In this document: piece after piece, positions 1 to 6,778 of the stretch
Layout of the letters: the number at the start of each line of letters is the position of its first letter
Position numbering within the stretch: position 1 is the first letter of the stretch
NCBI GenBank assembly: GCA_015709695.1
Contig: CP054183.1
Location: 620,001-684,000 of the forward strand
DNA: 64,000 bases
Origin: Gammaproteobacteria bacterium
GTDB taxonomy: Bacteria > Pseudomonadota > Gammaproteobacteria > Steroidobacterales > GCA-2729495
Direction: 5' to 3'
The notes under the pieces: model-generated
The model's database searches: none
Told to the model about the DNA's origin: nothing
What the model saw: the letters and a program-made list of their open reading frames with translations, nothing else
Made by a program: the position numbers and the translations under genes

Positions 1-1
1 T

Positions 2-676
2 GTATGTGGGGTGGGACTCGATGCTGCAGGTGTGACGTCCTGGAGGACTTTCGCTTCCCCGCATGCTGTCAGGCCACCTTGTTCGTGGTTCACTCCGTGC
101 AAAGCGAGTCAGGCGGAACTCCTGTTCCCATTGTTTGCAAAGCGTTGGCAGCAATCGGAGGAATGGAGAAATTGTCTGCGCTCGGCGATCTATTGGTATT
201 TACAGGCCAATACGCGCGGCGGCTCGCCGAGCATTGACGCCGCCATCATCCTGGCACAGTCTGCCTTGGAGCGATTGGCGTACCACTCTCTTGTGGTGGA
301 TCGCAAGATGATCTCCGGAAAGGGTTTTGACGACTTGCGTGCTTCCGACCGGCTGCGAATGCTCTTCTCTGTCTGCGGTATTCCGAACGAGATCACGGAT
401 GCAGCACCGGACATCCGCCAGGCGAATGGCTCCTTCAAAAAAGAGTCCAAGTGGATGGATGCGCCGCACGCCATCACCGACATCCGAAATTCTCTGGTTC
501 ATCCCGTTAGCAAGAAGGAAATGCACGATTGCTACGAGGACGCATGGAAGTTGAGCTTGTGGTACCTGGAATTGTCTGTGCTGGCCTTGTGTGGTTACGA
601 CAACACCTATACCAACCGGTTGACGGCGAGGTACGAGACTGACTCAGAGAGCGTGCCGTGGGGAAAGAAATCATGA
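2..676 (+). CDS. HEPN-type RNase-like protein, 5' end outside window
   Basis: The reading frame is open to the left edge, so the N-terminus is missing; the first in-window start would be a GTG at 11. The visible part is mostly helical. Around bases 485-502 it carries RNSLVH, which fits the R-x4-H catalytic motif of HEPN ribonucleases, a fold common in abortive-infection and toxin systems. An upstream stretch (FPLFAKRW, then a Trp/Tyr-rich helix and an AIILAQSALE helix) recalls ApeA-type and other large HEPN defence proteins; this is from memory of the family. The gene is visibly less GC-rich than most of the window. Its TGA overlaps the next ATG (ATGA), so translation is probably coupled to the nuclease gene. 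The HEPN call rests on one short motif plus context. Confidence 0.6.
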   Translation, partial: VCGVGLDAAGVTSWRTFASPHAVRPPCSWFTPCKASQAELLFPLFAKRWQQSEEWRNCLRSAIYWYLQANTRGGSPSIDAAIILAQSALERLAYHSLVVDRKMISGKGFDDLRASDRLRMLFSVCGIPNEITDAAPDIRQANGSFKKESKWMDAPHAITDIRNSLVHPVSKKEMHDCYEDAWKLSLWYLELSVLALCGYDNTYTNRLTARYETDSESVPWGKKS

Positions 677-1734
677 GCACCCAAGATGCAATGCCCGTCA
701 AGCTGATACCCGCGCCCGAAGGCTACGCCGAGTGGCTGGCCGAGCTGAAAGCCCGCATCCACACCGCTCAGCAACGCGCCGCGCTGGCGGTCAACCGTGA
801 GCTGGTGCTGCTGTACTGGCAGATTGGCCGCGACATCCTGGCACGGCAGGCCGAACAGGGTTGGGGCGCGAAAGTCATCGAGCGGCTGTCGCAGGACTTG
901 CGCTCGTCCTTCCCGGAGATGAAAGGCTTCTCCCCGCGAAACCTGAAGTACATGCGTGCTTTCGCCGAGGCATGGCCGGATCAGTCATTTGTGCAAGAGG
1001 TGCTTGCACAATTGCCGTGGTATCACCAGTTGGCGCTGCTGGACAAGCTGCCCGGCCCCCAAACCCGCAAGTGGTACGCCGCCCAGGCCATCGAGCACAA
1101 CTGGTCGCGCAATGTGCTGGTGATGCAGATTGAAGCCCGCTTGCTGGAGCGCAGCGGCAAGGCCGCCACCAATTTCGAGCTGACCCTGCCCAGGCCGCAG
1201 TCCGACCTGGCGCGCGAGTCGCTGAAGGACCCGTACCGCTTCGACTTTCTCGGCCTGACCGAACAGGCGCAGGAGCGCGCGGTGGAGGGTGCGCTGGTCA
1301 GGCACGTCACCGAATTCCTGCTGGAGCTGGGCGCCGGCTTCGCCTTCGTGGGGCGACAGGTGTTGCTGGACGTGGGCGGCGATGAATTCTTCATCGATCT
1401 GCTGTTCTATCACCTCAAGCTGCGCTGCTATGTGGTCGTCGATCTGAAGGGCGGCAAGTTCCAGCCCGAGCACCTGGGCCAACTGAGCTTCTACCTGACG
1501 GCGGTGGATGAGCAGGTCAGGCACCCGCAGGACAACCCGACCATCGGCCTGTTGTTGTGCAAGAGCAAGAACAAGGTGGTGGCCGAATACGCGCTGCGCC
1601 AGAACACGCAGCCGCTGGGCGTGGCCGAATACCAGTTGATCGAATCCCTGCCGCCGGAACTGGCGACGGATTTGCCGAGCATCGAACAGATCGAACAGGA
1701 ATTGACGGGAAATGATGCCGACCATGATCGATGA
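673..1734 (+). CDS. DUF1016/YhcG family PDDEXK nuclease
   Basis: The 353-aa product matches the YhcG (DUF1016) family in length and layout. An N-terminal helical domain (about residues 10-170, with LYWQIGRDIL and the conserved FSPRNLKYMR) is followed by a C-terminal PDDEXK-type nuclease domain (about 190-345). FIDLLFYH followed by VVDLKGG gives the Asp...Asp-x-Lys core expected of the catalytic site. ATG 673 was chosen over GTG 658 because it overlaps the upstream stop as ATGA and a purine-rich GGGGAAAG lies just before it. Family members occur in defence islands and beside restriction genes, but their exact role is not settled. Here it sits between a HEPN protein and a helicase in one tight operon. 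Confidence 0.88.
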   Translation: MSTQDAMPVKLIPAPEGYAEWLAELKARIHTAQQRAALAVNRELVLLYWQIGRDILARQAEQGWGAKVIERLSQDLRSSFPEMKGFSPRNLKYMRAFAEAWPDQSFVQEVLAQLPWYHQLALLDKLPGPQTRKWYAAQAIEHNWSRNVLVMQIEARLLERSGKAATNFELTLPRPQSDLARESLKDPYRFDFLGLTEQAQERAVEGALVRHVTEFLLELGAGFAFVGRQVLLDVGGDEFFIDLLFYHLKLRCYVVVDLKGGKFQPEHLGQLSFYLTAVDEQVRHPQDNPTIGLLLCKSKNKVVAEYALRQNTQPLGVAEYQLIESLPPELATDLPSIEQIEQELTGNDADHDR

Positions 1735-3787
1735 CGCCAGCAGGCAGCGCGCCGTTCCCTCCGTTTCCGTCACCTATGCCCGCAACGGCGCATCGACCCG
1801 GGCCAATGCGCTTGGGATGCGGCCCATGCAGGAGCGGGCCTACGAGAAGCGGGGCGAGCAATACCTGCTGATCAAGTCGCCGCCGGCATCGGGCAAGAGC
1901 CGGGCGCTGATGTTCGTGGCGCTGGACAAGCTGACGAACCAGGGCATCCGGCAGGCCATCATCGTCGTGCCGGAGAAATCCATCGGTGCCAGCTTCAACG
2001 ACGAGCCGCTGTCGCAGCATGGCTTCTGGGCCGACTGGCACGTCGAGCCGAAGTGGAACCTCTGCAACGCGCCGGGCAACGACAACGGCGGCAAGGTCAA
2101 ATCGCTGGGCGCATTCCTCGAAGGCGACGACAAGGTGCTGGTCTGCACCCACGCGACTTTCCGCTTCGCGGTCGATGCCTATGGCGTTGCGGCCTTCGAC
2201 GACCGCCTGATCGCGGTCGATGAGTTCCACCACGTATCGAGCAACCCGGACAACAGGCTCGGCCAGCACCTGGGGCAGTTCATCGCGCGGGACAGGACGC
2301 ATATCGTCGCCATGACCGGCTCCTACTTCCGCGGCGACGCCGAGGCCGTGTTGGCGCCTGCGGATGAGGCGAAGTTCGACACCGTCACCTACACCTACTA
2401 CGAACAGCTCAACGGCTACGAGTACCTCAAGCAGCTCGACATCGGCTACTTCTTCTACAGCGGCCCCTACGTCGACGACATCCTCGAGGTCCTCGACCCG
2501 GGCGAGAAGACCATCCTCCACATCCCGAACGTCAATTCGCGCGAGAGCACGAAGGACAAGATGCGCGAGGTGGAACACATCATCGAGGCGCTGGGAGAGT
2601 GGCAGGGGATCGATGCGGCCACCGGCTTTCAGCTCGTCAAGCGACCGGATGGGCGCGTGCTGCGCATCGCCGATCTGGTCGATGACGATGACTCGAAGCG
2701 GGACCGTGTGTCCGCCGCGCTCAAGGACCCGGTGCAGAAGAACAACCGCGACCATGTGGACATCATCATCGCGCTGGGCATGGCGAAGGAAGGTTTCGAC
2801 TGGATCTGGTGCGAACACGCGCTGACCGTGGGCTATCGCGCGAGCCTCACCGAGATCGTGCAGATCATCGGCCGTGCCACCCGCGATGCGCCCGGCAAGA
2901 CCCGGGCGCGGTTCACCAACCTGATCGCCGAGCCGGACGCGGCCGAGGAAGCCGTCACCGAGGCCGTCAACGATACCTTGAAGGCCATCGCGGCGAGCCT
3001 GCTGATGGAGCAGGTGCTTGCCCCGCGTTTCGAGTTCAAGCCCAAGCACCCTGACAGCGGCCCGACGCCGGGCTTCAACTATGGCGAGGCTGGCTACGAT
3101 CCGGGCCGCTGCAATGTCGGCGTCAATGAGCAGACCGGGGCGTACCAGGTCGAGATCAGAGGCATCGCCGAGCCCAGGAGCAGGGAGGCGACGCGAATCT
3201 GCCAGGAAGACCTGAACGAAGTCATCGCCGCCTTCGTGCAGGACAAGCCCAGCATCGAGCGCGGCCTGTTCGATGAGGAGCTGGTGCCCGAGGAGCTGAC
3301 GCAGGTGCGCATGGGCAAGATCATCAAGGACAAGTATCCCGAGCTCGATGCCGAAGATCAGGAGGCCGTGCGCCAGCACGCCATCGCTGCCCTGAACCTC
3401 ACGCAGCAGGCCAAGCGGCTCGTTGCCGAAGGCGAGGGCGAGGGCTCGCCCAACACCGCCCTGCTCGATGGCGTCCGCCGCTTCGCGATGGACGTGCGCG
3501 AGCTGGACATCGACCTGATCGATCGCATCAACCCCTTCGGGGCGGCCTACGCCATCCTCGCCCGGACCATGAGCGCGGACAGCCTGAAGCAGGTCGCGGC
3601 GGCCATCTCGGCCAAGCGCACGGGGCTGACGCCGGAGGAGGCGAAGGAGATGGCCGTGCGCGCTGTCCAGTTCAAGAAGGAGCGCGGCCGCATTCCGGCG
3701 CTCGATTCCCGGGATGCCTGGGAGCGACGCATGGCCGAAGGCGCGGCCGCCTTCATGCGCTTCAAGGCCGAGGGACGCTATGAGTAG
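1712..3787 (+). CDS. SF2 DEAD/DEAH-type helicase
   Basis: The 691-aa protein has the superfamily 2 motifs in order: PASGKS (motif I, Walker A, about residues 56-62), VDEFHH (motif II, about 169-173, a DEFH variant), MTGSYFRGD (motif III), and QIIGRATR (motif VI, about 384-391) after a GFDW segment typical of helicase domain 2. The C-terminal 300 residues are helical with no recognised domain. The start (ATG 1712 or 1715) lies inside the upstream nuclease gene, a 23-nt overlap, with GGGA just before it. NTP-driven nucleic-acid translocation or unwinding is the family role; the substrate is unknown. The neighbouring nucleases suggest it is the motor of a nuclease-helicase defence complex (inference). 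Confidence 0.85.
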   Translation: MMPTMIDDASRQRAVPSVSVTYARNGASTRANALGMRPMQERAYEKRGEQYLLIKSPPASGKSRALMFVALDKLTNQGIRQAIIVVPEKSIGASFNDEPLSQHGFWADWHVEPKWNLCNAPGNDNGGKVKSLGAFLEGDDKVLVCTHATFRFAVDAYGVAAFDDRLIAVDEFHHVSSNPDNRLGQHLGQFIARDRTHIVAMTGSYFRGDAEAVLAPADEAKFDTVTYTYYEQLNGYEYLKQLDIGYFFYSGPYVDDILEVLDPGEKTILHIPNVNSRESTKDKMREVEHIIEALGEWQGIDAATGFQLVKRPDGRVLRIADLVDDDDSKRDRVSAALKDPVQKNNRDHVDIIIALGMAKEGFDWIWCEHALTVGYRASLTEIVQIIGRATRDAPGKTRARFTNLIAEPDAAEEAVTEAVNDTLKAIAASLLMEQVLAPRFEFKPKHPDSGPTPGFNYGEAGYDPGRCNVGVNEQTGAYQVEIRGIAEPRSREATRICQEDLNEVIAAFVQDKPSIERGLFDEELVPEELTQVRMGKIIKDKYPELDAEDQEAVRQHAIAALNLTQQAKRLVAEGEGEGSPNTALLDGVRRFAMDVRELDIDLIDRINPFGAAYAILARTMSADSLKQVAAAISAKRTGLTPEEAKEMAVRAVQFKKERGRIPALDSRDAWERRMAEGAAAFMRFKAEGRYE

Positions 3788-4964
3788 CTCCGATCTCGAC
3801 GAACTCGCTGCGGAGCTGGCCGAGTTCGCGCCGCCTGAAAAGCAGGGCGGCCGGTCGGCCAGGGAGGAGCGCATCATCGCCGGCTTCGAGGAAATCCAGC
3901 GCTACACGGAAAAGCACGGCCACGCGCCGCAACACGGTGAAGACCGCGACATCTTCGAGCGCCTGTACGCCGTGCGGCTCGATCGTCTGCGCGCGCTCCC
4001 GGACTGCCGGGCTTTGCTCGAACCGCTGGACCATCAGGGCCTGCTTGCCGGGGCGCCTACCGTTGCCGCTTCAGCGGACGACACCATCGACGTCGATGAT
4101 CTGGCCGCCGAACTGGCAGGCGTGGTCGAGGCGGACGACATCACGGTGCTGCGCCATGTCCGCACCAGCGCCGACAAGCGCGCCGCCGAGGAGATCGCGG
4201 ATCGCAAGCCTTGCGCAGACTTCGAGGCGTTCAGGCCACTGTTCGAGCGCGTCGCGACAGAGGTCAAGACCGGTTTGCGCCAGTCACAGCCAATCGAGGC
4301 GGGACGCCGCGCGATCGAGGCCGGGGATTTTTTCGTTCTCGATGGCTTGACGCTCTACGTCGCCGAGCTCGGCGATCCGCTGAAAACCACCGCCGGGGAA
4401 GTGGATCGGCGCCTGCGCCTCATCTTCGCCAACGGCACCGAAAGCAATCTGCTGCTGCGCTCGCTCCAGCGCGCGTTCTACAACGACCCCGCCGCGCGAC
4501 GACTGGCCTCGCCCGAGAGCGGGCAGCTCTCCTTCGGCGGCGAGCTCGAGGCCGACGACATCGAAAGCGGCACGATCTACGTCCTGCGCTCCCTCTCCGA
4601 TCACCCTTACGTCGCGCAACACCGCGACATCATCCACAAGCTGGGCGTCACCGGGGGCAAGGTAGAGACGCGCATCGCCAACGCCGAGCACGAGGCCACT
4701 TACCTGCTGGCGAAGGTCGAGGTCGTTGCAACCTACAAGCTCGCGGGCATCAACCGCACCCGGATGGAGAACCTGTTCCACAGACTGTTCGCGCCCGCGC
4801 GCTTGAACATCACCATCAACGACCGATTCGGTCATCCCGTGCAGCCCGAGGAATGGTTTCTCGTGCCGCTGTTCGTGATCGACGAGGCCGTCGCGCGCAT
4901 CAAGGATGGCAGCATCACCGGCTACGTCTACGATCCGAGCGGAGCGAAGCTGGTGAAGGCATAG
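3780..4964 (+). CDS. GIY-YIG family nuclease with N-terminal helical region
   Basis: The 394-aa product is predicted from ATG 3780, which overlaps the helicase stop by 8 nt; a longer in-frame start at 3714 would run deep into the helicase gene and is less likely. Residues about 263-345 form a GIY-YIG/T5orf172-like domain: TIYVLRS (GIY strand), HKLGVTGG (YIG-like strand), the Arg in VETRIANAEH, and the metal-binding Glu in MENLFHRLFAPARL. The N-terminal 250 residues are acidic and helical with no recognised fold. The protein is probably a DNA nuclease working with the upstream helicase. It is the last gene of the four-gene operon, followed by a 159-bp gap before abiE. Confidence 0.82.
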   Translation: MSSSDLDELAAELAEFAPPEKQGGRSAREERIIAGFEEIQRYTEKHGHAPQHGEDRDIFERLYAVRLDRLRALPDCRALLEPLDHQGLLAGAPTVAASADDTIDVDDLAAELAGVVEADDITVLRHVRTSADKRAAEEIADRKPCADFEAFRPLFERVATEVKTGLRQSQPIEAGRRAIEAGDFFVLDGLTLYVAELGDPLKTTAGEVDRRLRLIFANGTESNLLLRSLQRAFYNDPAARRLASPESGQLSFGGELEADDIESGTIYVLRSLSDHPYVAQHRDIIHKLGVTGGKVETRIANAEHEATYLLAKVEVVATYKLAGINRTRMENLFHRLFAPARLNITINDRFGHPVQPEEWFLVPLFVIDEAVARIKDGSITGYVYDPSGAKLVKA

Positions 4965-5052: not shown

Positions 5053-5134
5053 CGTAGCCAAATTACGACAATTTCATCTGTATCAAATTGACTTTCATTT
5101 GAGATAGATGTATTAACCGTAGCATGACTACGAC
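5053..5134 (+). promoter_or_regulatory. abiE promoter with twin operators and leaderless start
   Basis: A near-consensus sigma-70 promoter is visible: TTGACT at 5088-5093, a 17-nt spacer, and TATTAA at 5111-5116. Transcription would start around 5122-5124, on or next to the abiEi ATG at 5124, and no Shine-Dalgarno precedes that ATG, so the mRNA is probably leaderless. Two copies of CGTAGC-N5-TACGAC, at 5053-5069 and 5118-5134, flank the promoter 65 bp apart; each contains CGTA...TACG dyad symmetry and the second covers the start codon. Known AbiEi antitoxins repress their own operon by binding two inverted repeats, which this arrangement fits. A further dyad, AGTCTG...CAGACT, lies at 5142-5158 inside the coding region. 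Confidence 0.75.
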
Positions 5135-5861
5135 TAAACAAAGTCTGCTAAACAGACTCCACACGCGGCTGGCGCCTGGCACCCCCTTGGTGTCCGAGGA
5201 TCTGGCTGCCATGGGCATATCCGCAGACTTGGCGGTTCACTACGTTCGTGCTGGCTGGCTTACGCGCCTGGCGCGCGGCGTTTTCTGCAGGCCAAACGAT
5301 CCACCCGCGCTGCACCCCAGTCTGCTGCTTCTGCAACGCAAGTTCGAAGGGCTTCACGTGGGAGGCAGGTCGGCGCTCGACTGGTACGGGCTGCGTCAAT
5401 ACGTGGCACAGCAGCCGGTACTGCAGCTCTACGGGTGGGCGGCCGGTCGTCTGCCCCCATGGTTCACGGAGAGGTTTCCCGCCGAGTATCACCGAAAGCG
5501 AATGTTCGACGAACGGCCCGAAGCGCTTCTTCATGTCGGCCCTTTCGAGCAACGCCGCGAAGCTCCGCGGGTCTCCGCGCCGGAGCGGGCACTGCTGGAA
5601 CTGCTGAGTGAGGTCGGTGTCAGGCAGACACTGCAGGAAGCCCGCGAGCTGGTAGAAAGCGCCTACTACCTGCGCGCCGATGTGCTGCGCGAACTTCTGC
5701 AGCAGTGCACCAGCATCAAGACGGTCCGGCTGTGTCTGCTGCTGGGTGGGGAGGGCTCGCTGCCTTGGATGAGCAAGCTCGATCCGGCCGCGCTTCCGAA
5801 AGGCAGCGATCGGCCGTGGGTGGCGCGATCCGCGGAAGGGTTGCTGGTGCTCAAGCCGTGA
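5124..5861 (+). CDS. abiEi: AbiEi-family antitoxin (type IV TA)
   Basis: The 245-aa protein matches the AbiEi family. It has an N-terminal winged-helix region (about residues 1-60, ending LARGVFCRP) followed by the AbiEi C-terminal domain with LHVGGRSALDWYG and SAPERALLELL. In this family the antitoxin counters the AbiEii nucleotidyltransferase and represses the operon by binding repeats in its promoter; the twin operators upstream fit that. The ATG lies 8 nt after the -10 hexamer with no ribosome-binding site, so leaderless initiation is likely. The stop overlaps the toxin start as GTGA. Confidence 0.93.
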   Translation: MTTTKQSLLNRLHTRLAPGTPLVSEDLAAMGISADLAVHYVRAGWLTRLARGVFCRPNDPPALHPSLLLLQRKFEGLHVGGRSALDWYGLRQYVAQQPVLQLYGWAAGRLPPWFTERFPAEYHRKRMFDERPEALLHVGPFEQRREAPRVSAPERALLELLSEVGVRQTLQEARELVESAYYLRADVLRELLQQCTSIKTVRLCLLLGGEGSLPWMSKLDPAALPKGSDRPWVARSAEGLLVLKP

Positions 5862-6778
5862 ATGCATTGTATCTCCAGACGGCGAGGATGATGGCGCAGG
5901 TCGCGCCGTTGGTATTCGTCGATGACACCTTCGCTCTGAAGGGCGGCACGGCCATCAACCTTTTCGTGCGTGACATGCCCCGTCTGTCTGTGGACCTCGA
6001 TCTGGTCTTTGCTGACCATTCACTGCCACGAGAGCAGGCGCTGGCTCGTATCAACGAGGCGATCCGCGAAGCCGCCGACAGACTCGTTCGGCGTGGATTT
6101 CAGGTGCACATTCCAGAAGCGCAGGCGGGCGAAACCAAGCTGCTGGTACGACGCGACCGGATCGAAGTCAAGGTGGAAGCCAACGTCGTCATGCGCGGGA
6201 CGGTGCATCCTGTGCGCAGGGTTTCCCTCGTGCATGCCGCCCGCAACCAGTTGCTCGCTGACCTGGAGCTTCCAATGGTGTCGCTGGAGGATCTGTACGG
6301 CGGCAAGCTCTGCGCCGCGCTCGATCGTCAACATCCGCGCGACCTCTTCGACGTGATGAAACTCTACGAGCACGAGGGAATCACGCCCGGCATCCGTCGC
6401 TCATTCGTCGTCTACCTGGCCTGTGGCAACAGACCCATCCATGAGTTGCTGTTTCCGCAGCTGCGCGACATCCGGCACGACTACGCACACAGCTTTCAGG
6501 GAATGACCGAGGAGTCCGTGCCACTGGATGCCTTGACCGCGACAAGGGACAAGATGATCAAGCAGATCCAGCGGGAGCTGGACGACGACGAGCGCCGGTT
6601 TCTCCTGTCACTCGTTCGCACGGAGCCCGAATGGCCGCGGCTCGGCATGGCGCACCTTGAGCATCTGCCCGGCTTGCGCTGGAAACTGCAGAACCTGCTG
6701 CAGCTGCGCAAGGCCAACGCGTCCAAGTTCGCAGAGCAGGCCGATGCTTTGATCACCGGGTTTGCGAGCGTCAGGTGA
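5858..6778 (+). CDS. abiEii: AbiEii-family nucleotidyltransferase toxin
   Basis: The 306-aa protein is an AbiEii/DUF1814 nucleotidyltransferase. The motifs are all visible: LKGGTAINLF (GGT at 29-31), SVDLDLVF (catalytic Asp pair at 46 and 48), a VKVEANVV strand, and the LYGGKLCAALDRQHPRDLFDV segment carrying the conserved Lys and Asp. In characterised systems it halts growth when the antitoxin is lost and contributes to phage abortive infection. GTG 5858 was chosen because it overlaps the antitoxin stop and gives the family-typical MNALYLQTAR start; the longer upstream frame is an overlap artefact. The last gene of the defence island. Confidence 0.94.
   Translation: MNALYLQTARMMAQVAPLVFVDDTFALKGGTAINLFVRDMPRLSVDLDLVFADHSLPREQALARINEAIREAADRLVRRGFQVHIPEAQAGETKLLVRRDRIEVKVEANVVMRGTVHPVRRVSLVHAARNQLLADLELPMVSLEDLYGGKLCAALDRQHPRDLFDVMKLYEHEGITPGIRRSFVVYLACGNRPIHELLFPQLRDIRHDYAHSFQGMTEESVPLDALTATRDKMIKQIQRELDDDERRFLLSLVRTEPEWPRLGMAHLEHLPGLRWKLQNLLQLRKANASKFAEQADALITGFASVR

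Follow-up and report, generated by a model that had tools for sequence, protein, structure and literature searches.

What is the gene for a probable RNA-cutting toxin doing inside an apparent restriction operon? The question is raised by a locus at the beginning of a 64,000-nucleotide stretch of DNA from a Gammaproteobacteria bacterium (the window: bases 620001-684000 of a genome that forms a single contig of 3.1 Mb), for which we also read the DNA upstream. A preliminary description of the window had reported four overlapping genes, encoding a HEPN protein, a DUF1016 nuclease, a superfamily 2 (SF2) helicase and a GIY-YIG nuclease, next to an AbiE pair, and had suggested that they might form an undescribed defence system. 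The four genes are indeed found on the + strand in that order, with the ATGA, 23-nt and 8-nt overlaps that had been described, and the neighbouring AbiE pair is confirmed by Pfam and PADLOC matches. The operon, however, does not begin with the HEPN gene: a gene for a DnmA-like methyltransferase lies immediately upstream and overlaps it by ATGA.

Because a methyltransferase of the MmeI type directly precedes the HEPN gene, and the helicase and GIY-YIG genes lie downstream, we take the core of the locus to be a DnmA-YeeB-YeeC restriction-modification locus. Thus a role in defence is supported, but the system is not a wholly new one: as the preliminary description had allowed, the upstream region largely reveals part of a known restriction system, of whose described cluster the HEPN and DUF1016 genes are not a part. 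We consider it reasonably probable that the locus is a five-gene restriction-modification system in which restriction would act first and a HEPN ribonuclease toxin would stand by, kept in check by the restriction proteins. This reading draws on the content and order of the genes, their conserved junctions, the HEPN motif and predicted fold, purifying selection, and recurrence beside restriction genes, from which we infer each of the biochemical steps. The five genes and the AbiE pair that follows them are arranged as follows.

G000:C1:616550-619336, + strand, wholly upstream of the window: DnmA-like methyltransferase gene, with an ATGA overlap with the HEPN gene.
Window 1..676, + strand: 3' part of the HEPN gene; the complete gene is G000:C1:619333-620676 (447 aa).
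673..1734, + strand: DUF1016/YhcG PD-(D/E)XK nuclease-like gene; its ATG at 673 overlaps the HEPN stop, and GTG at 658 is an alternative.
1712..3787, + strand: SF2 helicase gene, YeeB-type; alternative starts are ATG at 1715 and 1724.
3780..4964, + strand: GIY-YIG (MUG113/T5orf172) nuclease gene, YeeC-type; start picked by the 8-nt overlap.
5124..5861, + strand: AbiEi antitoxin gene of a type IV toxin-antitoxin pair (Pfam AbiEi_3 3.8e-39; PADLOC AbiEi 1.1e-63).
5858..6778, + strand: AbiEii toxin gene (Pfam AbiEii 1.8e-40); GTG at 5858 overlaps the AbiEi stop, and the reading frame is open from 5705.

The HEPN gene does extend past the window, as had been noted: it starts not at base 2 but 668 bases before window base 1. 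The junctions within the window are an ATGA at 673-676 (HEPN/DUF1016), 23 nt at 1712-1734 (DUF1016/helicase) and 8 nt at 3780-3787 (helicase/GIY-YIG). The methyltransferase is a protein of 928 residues (ATG at L004:1550, stop at 4336) that matches all five MmeI domains in Pfam and aligns to the solved MmeI structure 5hr4 from residue 121 onward (E 4.7e-143). There is no alignment to MmeI before residue 121, and [DE]xK is absent from the N-terminal stretch that was scanned, where we take the nuclease motif of MmeI to lie; seven related methyltransferase rows have one or two [DE]xK in this stretch, which is not alignable to MmeI. Passages of PMC9973331 describe DnmA, too, as having no nuclease motif, and give as the commonest order in DnmA(YeeA)-YeeB-YeeC clusters, known from B. 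subtilis and with homologues in V. crassostreae, the helicase first and the GIY-YIG protein second after the methyltransferase.

The downstream proteins are recognised with varying ease. The DUF1016 protein matches Pfam YhcG_C (4.7e-63) and DUF1016_N (2.2e-45) and PADLOC PDC-S02 (8e-168), and a PD-(D/E)XK nuclease has been predicted for the DUF1016/YhcG family (in passages of PMC1189080); in PHROGs the family is phrog_22762, listed as of unknown function. The GIY-YIG protein matches Pfam MUG113 (3.3e-11) and T5orf172 (1.5e-9). The helicase has weak matches to DEAD and ResIII, both under the Pfam cut-offs (2e-5 and 5e-4), and the plasmid proteins in the 40 matches listed for it are 67-88% identical to it, most of them annotated as DEAD/DEAH box helicases, others as 'pseudomurein-binding repeat' or hypothetical proteins, and one as 'component YeeB'; further plasmid relatives, including those of Niallia and lactobacilli, are 43-45% identical.

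The HEPN protein itself is named by no library: Pfam, NCBIfam, PADLOC and PHROGs contain no identifying model for it, and the HEPN call stands on the motif and the predicted fold. The motif RNSLVH occupies residues 385-390 of the 447-aa protein, whose model is rich in β-structure over its N-terminal half and, for the C-terminal domain, predicts a fold like that of HEPN toxins, so that both marks of the HEPN superfamily, the Rx4-6H motif and (as predicted) the helical fold, are present. The pattern R-N-x3-H is kept in all 25 distinct members of the family, including YopA of phage SPβ. Pfam HEPN_Apea gives a weak match in one of 21 members (E 0.071) and none in the window protein, and Pfam finds no PrrC-type N-terminal ABC-ATPase domain, in whose place stands the β-rich half. 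Judging from the modelled fold and the motif, the protein is a probable RNA-cutting toxin.

It is important to know whether this gene arrangement is peculiar to one genome. The order methyltransferase-HEPN-DUF1016-helicase occurs here and in L060, L061 and L063, the last with its methyltransferase split into two overlapping frames, and the GIY-YIG gene is seen here and in L060 and L061. The four families first reported are thus neighbours, in the same order, in other genomes, and because the order recurs in this way we regard it as more than chance. Three further loci (L057, L059, L064) have methyltransferase-HEPN-helicase-GIY-YIG without DUF1016, and L058 is a decayed copy that keeps the tail of a methyltransferase and HEPN, its DUF1016 gene lying in two parts on either side of frames that by eye resemble a transposase. 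In all eight of these loci (the present one, L057-L061, L063, L064) the methyltransferase and HEPN genes overlap by ATGA.

The mechanism that we propose borrows from PrrC, a toxin that, according to passages of PMC3710099 and PMC3506569, is held inactive by its restriction complex and freed when a phage blocks restriction; the same passages record a proposal of such control for other HEPN genes in restriction-modification operons. To judge from its family, the methyltransferase would mark host DNA, while the helicase and GIY-YIG nuclease, again by family, would restrict DNA that is unmarked. The HEPN protein would be a ribonuclease toxin, its gene placed between the marking and the cutting genes and coupled to the methyltransferase through the ATGA stop-start. 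By analogy with PrrC, the restriction proteins most likely keep it inactive; if restriction failed or were blocked, it would be released and the infected cell would be stopped. The DUF1016 protein would be a DNase with an accessory role in the locus, and its gene would come and go more readily than that of HEPN.

At the present locus the methyltransferase and helicase genes are not immediate neighbours, two genes intervening. We do not take such adjacency as defining DnmA-YeeB-YeeC, because other loci, too, have genes in the slot that separates methyltransferase from helicase: of the 24 other helicase-selected loci with both genes, 14 have it filled and 10 hold no gene there. (The helicase was searched for in 299 and in 369 genomes, with matches in 18 and 13 of them, our own genome included each time; the fragments or weak matches G168, G195, G249 and G626 were left out of the slot counts, and G102 was counted once.) The 14 fillers are RhuM in three loci; DUF1016, PDDEXK_4 and DUF4145-like proteins in two each (one of the DUF4145-like genes with an island); probable toxin-antitoxin genes in two, one assigned on a weak ParE match and one by eye; and, once each, a CoiA-like protein (match just under the Pfam cut-off) with an AAA_15 ATPase, an island of several genes that includes a remnant of DUF1016, and an unclassified gene. 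A YopA-type HEPN gene is in none of these 14. RhuM has been proposed as a toxin used in the manner of PrrC (in passages of PMC3710099). Among viral contigs, methyltransferase and helicase occur together in 21 of 27 helicase loci (L099, L102, L104, L106, L112 and L122, which have no methyltransferase in the stretch, were dropped), and the slot is filled in seven, L114 and L115 having the same coordinates. Three annotated plasmid loci have methyltransferase, helicase and GIY-YIG as neighbours without HEPN or DUF1016; in a fourth, toxin-antitoxin genes intervene, and a fifth has a fragmented methyltransferase. Across a set of 55 loci, seven of them chosen via HEPN, overlaps of the ATGA/GTGA type join methyltransferase to filler in 19 of 28 filled loci and filler to helicase in 16 of 28 (L088 contributes one of these through a 102-aa frame that is unclassified); where the slot is empty, such an overlap links the methyltransferase directly to the helicase in 13 of 27 loci.

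Two of the fillers deserve separate mention. A 276-277-aa protein in L037, L083 and L120 has a weak DUF4145 match in one copy (E 0.0013) and a motif of the RNYIHP type in L037 and L083; it is possibly a second HEPN family in the same slot. A CoiA-like protein stands in the slot of two related loci, L082:6373-7056 (CoiA_N just below cut-off) and L105:457-1290 (by eye, from its likeness to the L082 protein).

We compared the slot contents with a helicase tree, obtained by a quick search and having 21 of its 52 inner branches open and long-branch warnings; L027, whose methyltransferase is in pieces with an annotated IS5-family transposase between them, and L058 were left out, as was L115, identical to L114 in length and coordinates. 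Slot states require 25 changes on this tree, compared with 25-28 (mean 27.5) when labels are shuffled, 4 of 200 shuffles being as low; the distinction of filled from empty requires 16, against a shuffle mean of 18.7 (26/200 as low). DUF1016 changes six times in seven rows, RhuM four in four, PDDEXK_4 three in three and DUF4145-like three in three, and these and the toxin-antitoxin genes are scattered about as shuffled labels are. HEPN requires three changes against a shuffle mean of 6.8, with none of 200 shuffles as low, though the rows with HEPN were selected by searching for it among close relatives, and this favours clustering. Signs of exchange are seen for one filler: between our locus and L086 the DUF1016 proteins are 83% identical, compared with 64% for the methyltransferase, 71% for the helicase and 62% for the GIY-YIG protein, whereas between L086 and L089, of one lineage, DUF1016 is 82% and the helicase 89% identical. 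DUF1016 is thus more alike than its flanks between lineages and not within one, as expected for exchange between slots. RhuM (70-73%), PDDEXK_4 (45-50%) and the DUF4145-like proteins (58-79%) have no comparably clear excess over their flanks, so that for them exchange is suggested by the tree.

These patterns bear on two broader readings. One is that DnmA-YeeBC systems have a dedicated effector slot for exchangeable, translationally coupled toxins and nucleases, each of which would be controlled by the same restriction core; this we advance tentatively, as a real possibility of which we are not persuaded. Were it true, one sensing machine could be re-armed with different killers, such as YopA-type HEPN, RhuM, DUF1016, PDDEXK_4 and the DUF4145-like HEPN candidates. 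The other treats HEPN and DUF1016 as cargo: genes for defence or addiction in their own right, which landed between methyltransferase and helicase and use the transcription of the operon without cooperating with the restriction proteins. Such a view would account for the variety of unrelated genes in the slot, probable toxin-antitoxin genes and a multi-gene island included, for the scatter of DUF1016, RhuM, PDDEXK_4 and DUF4145-like genes on the tree, and for the empty slots of close relatives of HEPN carriers (L028, L032, L097). It sits less well with the clustering of HEPN (whose rows, however, came from a HEPN search), with the invariant methyltransferase-HEPN overlap, and with the recurrence of the HEPN family beside several unrelated restriction systems. 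On balance we think cargo somewhat unlikely, and retain the five-gene system with a restrained HEPN toxin.

The recurrence just mentioned is seen when the HEPN family is followed beyond the DnmA-type loci. Its members come from seven plasmid records (six examined; a second E. coli plasmid hit, H45, was left aside), 14 genome loci, yopA of SPβ and one viral-contig relative, and two helicase loci; the genome loci were found among 84,980 species genomes with two short patterns, so that there are at least 14. L065 and L070 have their HEPN genes in type I loci, with HsdM and HsdR in both; on an E. coli plasmid, hsdM lies downstream with one small gene between; and two cyanobacterial plasmid members are flanked by a methyltransferase of the Eco57I/TaqI_C type on one side and by a helicase carrying SNF2 and PLD-like domains on the other, one of the two loci having an extra gene annotated as a sigma factor. 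Two distant, divergent members in viral-contig records, L113:2249-3580 (E 5e-14) and L117:2891-4246 (E 4e-14), are 5' of a DnmA-like methyltransferase. (In both, a frame resembling a helix-turn-helix protein stands between HEPN member and methyltransferase, and in L117 a serine-recombinase-like frame, recognised by eye, precedes.)

In all, restriction genes adjoin 15 of the 25 members, or 13 of 23 if the two found through the helicase are set aside. As a control, 20 evenly spaced 20-kb stretches of our own genome, the only background used, were searched with nine methyltransferase or restriction protein queries at E <= 1e-10: none matched, compared with 14 of the 25 HEPN stretches. The queries were taken from the present locus, L049, L050, L065 and L070, which match by construction; the other nine matches are the DnmA relatives L057, L059-L061, L063, L064, L113 and L117, together with L051, the methyltransferase tail of L058 being too short to match.

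Ten members have no recognised restriction genes beside them (L047, L048, L052, L062, L066-L069, L092, L095), as judged by annotation, by eye and by phmmer with few queries; L066 comes from a contig of 8 kb, the genes around L095 were surveyed without reading each of them, and a GIY-YIG gene about 2.7 kb downstream in L052 was excluded from the count. For L062 and L047 (64% and 60% identical) no methyltransferase frame is present, the DNA 5' of the L062 HEPN gene resembling the methyltransferase end by eye only. These solitary members, SPβ yopA among them, together with the two-domain build and its β-rich N-terminal half, are what one would expect if the HEPN protein were itself a phage sensor and effector of abortive infection, the β domain sensing and the HEPN domain cutting RNA, with the link to restriction-modification being one of additive defence and not of mutual control. 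The 15 members in or beside restriction loci, two of them helicase-found, speak against this, and we judge it unlikely.

A further concern is that the locus could be a relic in which the methyltransferase alone matters, as was concluded for B. subtilis. In passages of PMC9973331, deletion of the core had no effect in B. subtilis, while in V. crassostreae it made the cells more sensitive to certain phage subclades and left sensitivity to others unchanged. Split or decayed genes also occur in several related loci: besides L058, methyltransferases are split into two overlapping frames in L044, L063, L089 and L091 and two separate frames in L084. In addition, our own DUF1016 protein has DLK at a place where the seven other distinct copies that cover it (L058, L060, L061, L063, L086, L089, L114) have ELK. 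Yet all five frames of our locus are open, and the helicase retains SPPASGKS, VDEFHH and QIIGRATR intact, presumably its motifs I, II and VI. Ratios of nonsynonymous to synonymous change (dN/dS) against our own genes, computed by the Nei-Gojobori method with some synonymous distances above 1 and near saturation, are 0.14-0.21 for the methyltransferase, 0.18-0.26 for HEPN, 0.16-0.27 for DUF1016, 0.10-0.15 for the helicase (0.40 with L063) and 0.07-0.12 for GIY-YIG. Thus we conclude that all five genes are maintained as proteins by purifying selection, HEPN and DUF1016 somewhat less strictly than the helicase and GIY-YIG, and a relic is improbable. As for the four-gene system without a methyltransferase that was first proposed, the overlap of its genes as one operon is outweighed by the ATGA that joins the methyltransferase to HEPN here and in seven other loci, and by the many loci in which helicase and GIY-YIG accompany a methyltransferase without HEPN; it is very improbable.

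The surroundings of the operon add some context. G+C is 0.56 across the end of the methyltransferase and the start of HEPN and 0.61 over the window's opening 2 kb, in surroundings of mostly 0.63-0.70, and the dip fits horizontal acquisition. Upstream, a short open frame at L004:1380-1484, 5' of the methyltransferase, looks by eye like the start of an excisionase or helix-turn-helix protein. About 12-16 kb upstream of the window, at L003:4173-7400, lies a pair of frames that we take to resemble istA/istB of the IS21 type, part of the presumed istA frame occurring also on the opposite strand. Downstream, the AbiEi/AbiEii pair adjoins the GIY-YIG gene. We rejected it as a component of the restriction system: it is a toxin-antitoxin pair of its own, and among the loci scanned AbiE matches lie near only two other DnmA-YeeBC loci, L037 and L085.

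Neither the DnmA-YeeB-YeeC core nor the notion that restriction-modification loci carry HEPN toxins is new. In the mainly open-access literature, taken without supplements, we did not find described the present HEPN family, its link to YopA, the HEPN and DUF1016 pair in DnmA-YeeBC, or the recurrent filler slot; the HEPN survey of PMC3710099, from which passages are used here, may list the family under a gene name outside our literature search. To the HEPN clades linked to restriction-modification the locus adds a family that no model of four libraries identifies, and ties that family to SPβ YopA. Within a restriction system that recurs, it also marks out a single site at which one toxin seems to be exchanged for another. 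Should the occupants prove to be under the control of the core, the older proposal that restriction systems keep toxins in reserve could be tested in a single chassis, using several effectors found in nature.

It remains to set the locus beside the systems it resembles. With the MmeI type IIL/IIG enzymes it shares the methyltransferase, spacer, target-recognition and C-terminal domains; a single-protein type IIG enzyme was rejected, since no nuclease motif of its own was seen in the methyltransferase, and helicase and nuclease are separate proteins. With DISARM and BREX it shares a methyltransferase, a helicase and accessory nucleases, and a DrmMI model covers part of the methyltransferase (1.7e-24); these were rejected, there being no DrmA, DrmB, PglZ or BrxC among the PADLOC matches listed for the seven proteins (the best 25 of 38 for the methyltransferase, the best 25 of 31 for DUF1016, and the full list for the helicase, in which DrmA does not occur). 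ApeA and the other HEPN clades treated in passages of PMC3710099 likewise have HEPN domains with Rx4H inside restriction-modification operons, but the window protein has no HEPN_Apea match, and the other clades were compared as far as Pfam has them. YopA of SPβ (phage SPBc2, L092) is a full-length homologue of the HEPN protein (25% identity, hhalign probability 99.95-100%) with R-N-x3-H kept; unlike our locus, the 9.3 kb examined there contain nothing annotated as a restriction gene. There, yopA precedes yopB-yopC (a helix-turn-helix regulator and a RES-domain protein), and a superinfection-exclusion-like gene lies farther along.

The DnmA-YeeB-YeeC cluster is matched in its MmeI-type methyltransferase without a nuclease motif seen, its SF2 helicase and its T5orf172/GIY-YIG protein, in the same order, B. 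subtilis proteins being compared by description and not by sequence; our locus differs in having HEPN and DUF1016 between methyltransferase and helicase. For the HEPN gene the comparison is with PrrC-PrrI, in which PrrC is a HEPN anticodon nuclease. Our HEPN protein has no ABC-ATPase match and a β-rich N-terminal half, and its host system is DnmA-YeeBC where PrrI is a type Ic hsd system. In both cases, however, the gene of a HEPN toxin lies inside a restriction operon, with control by the restriction proteins as the arrangement proposed for ours, and in place, order and coupling the locus fits, by analogy, the PrrC scheme.

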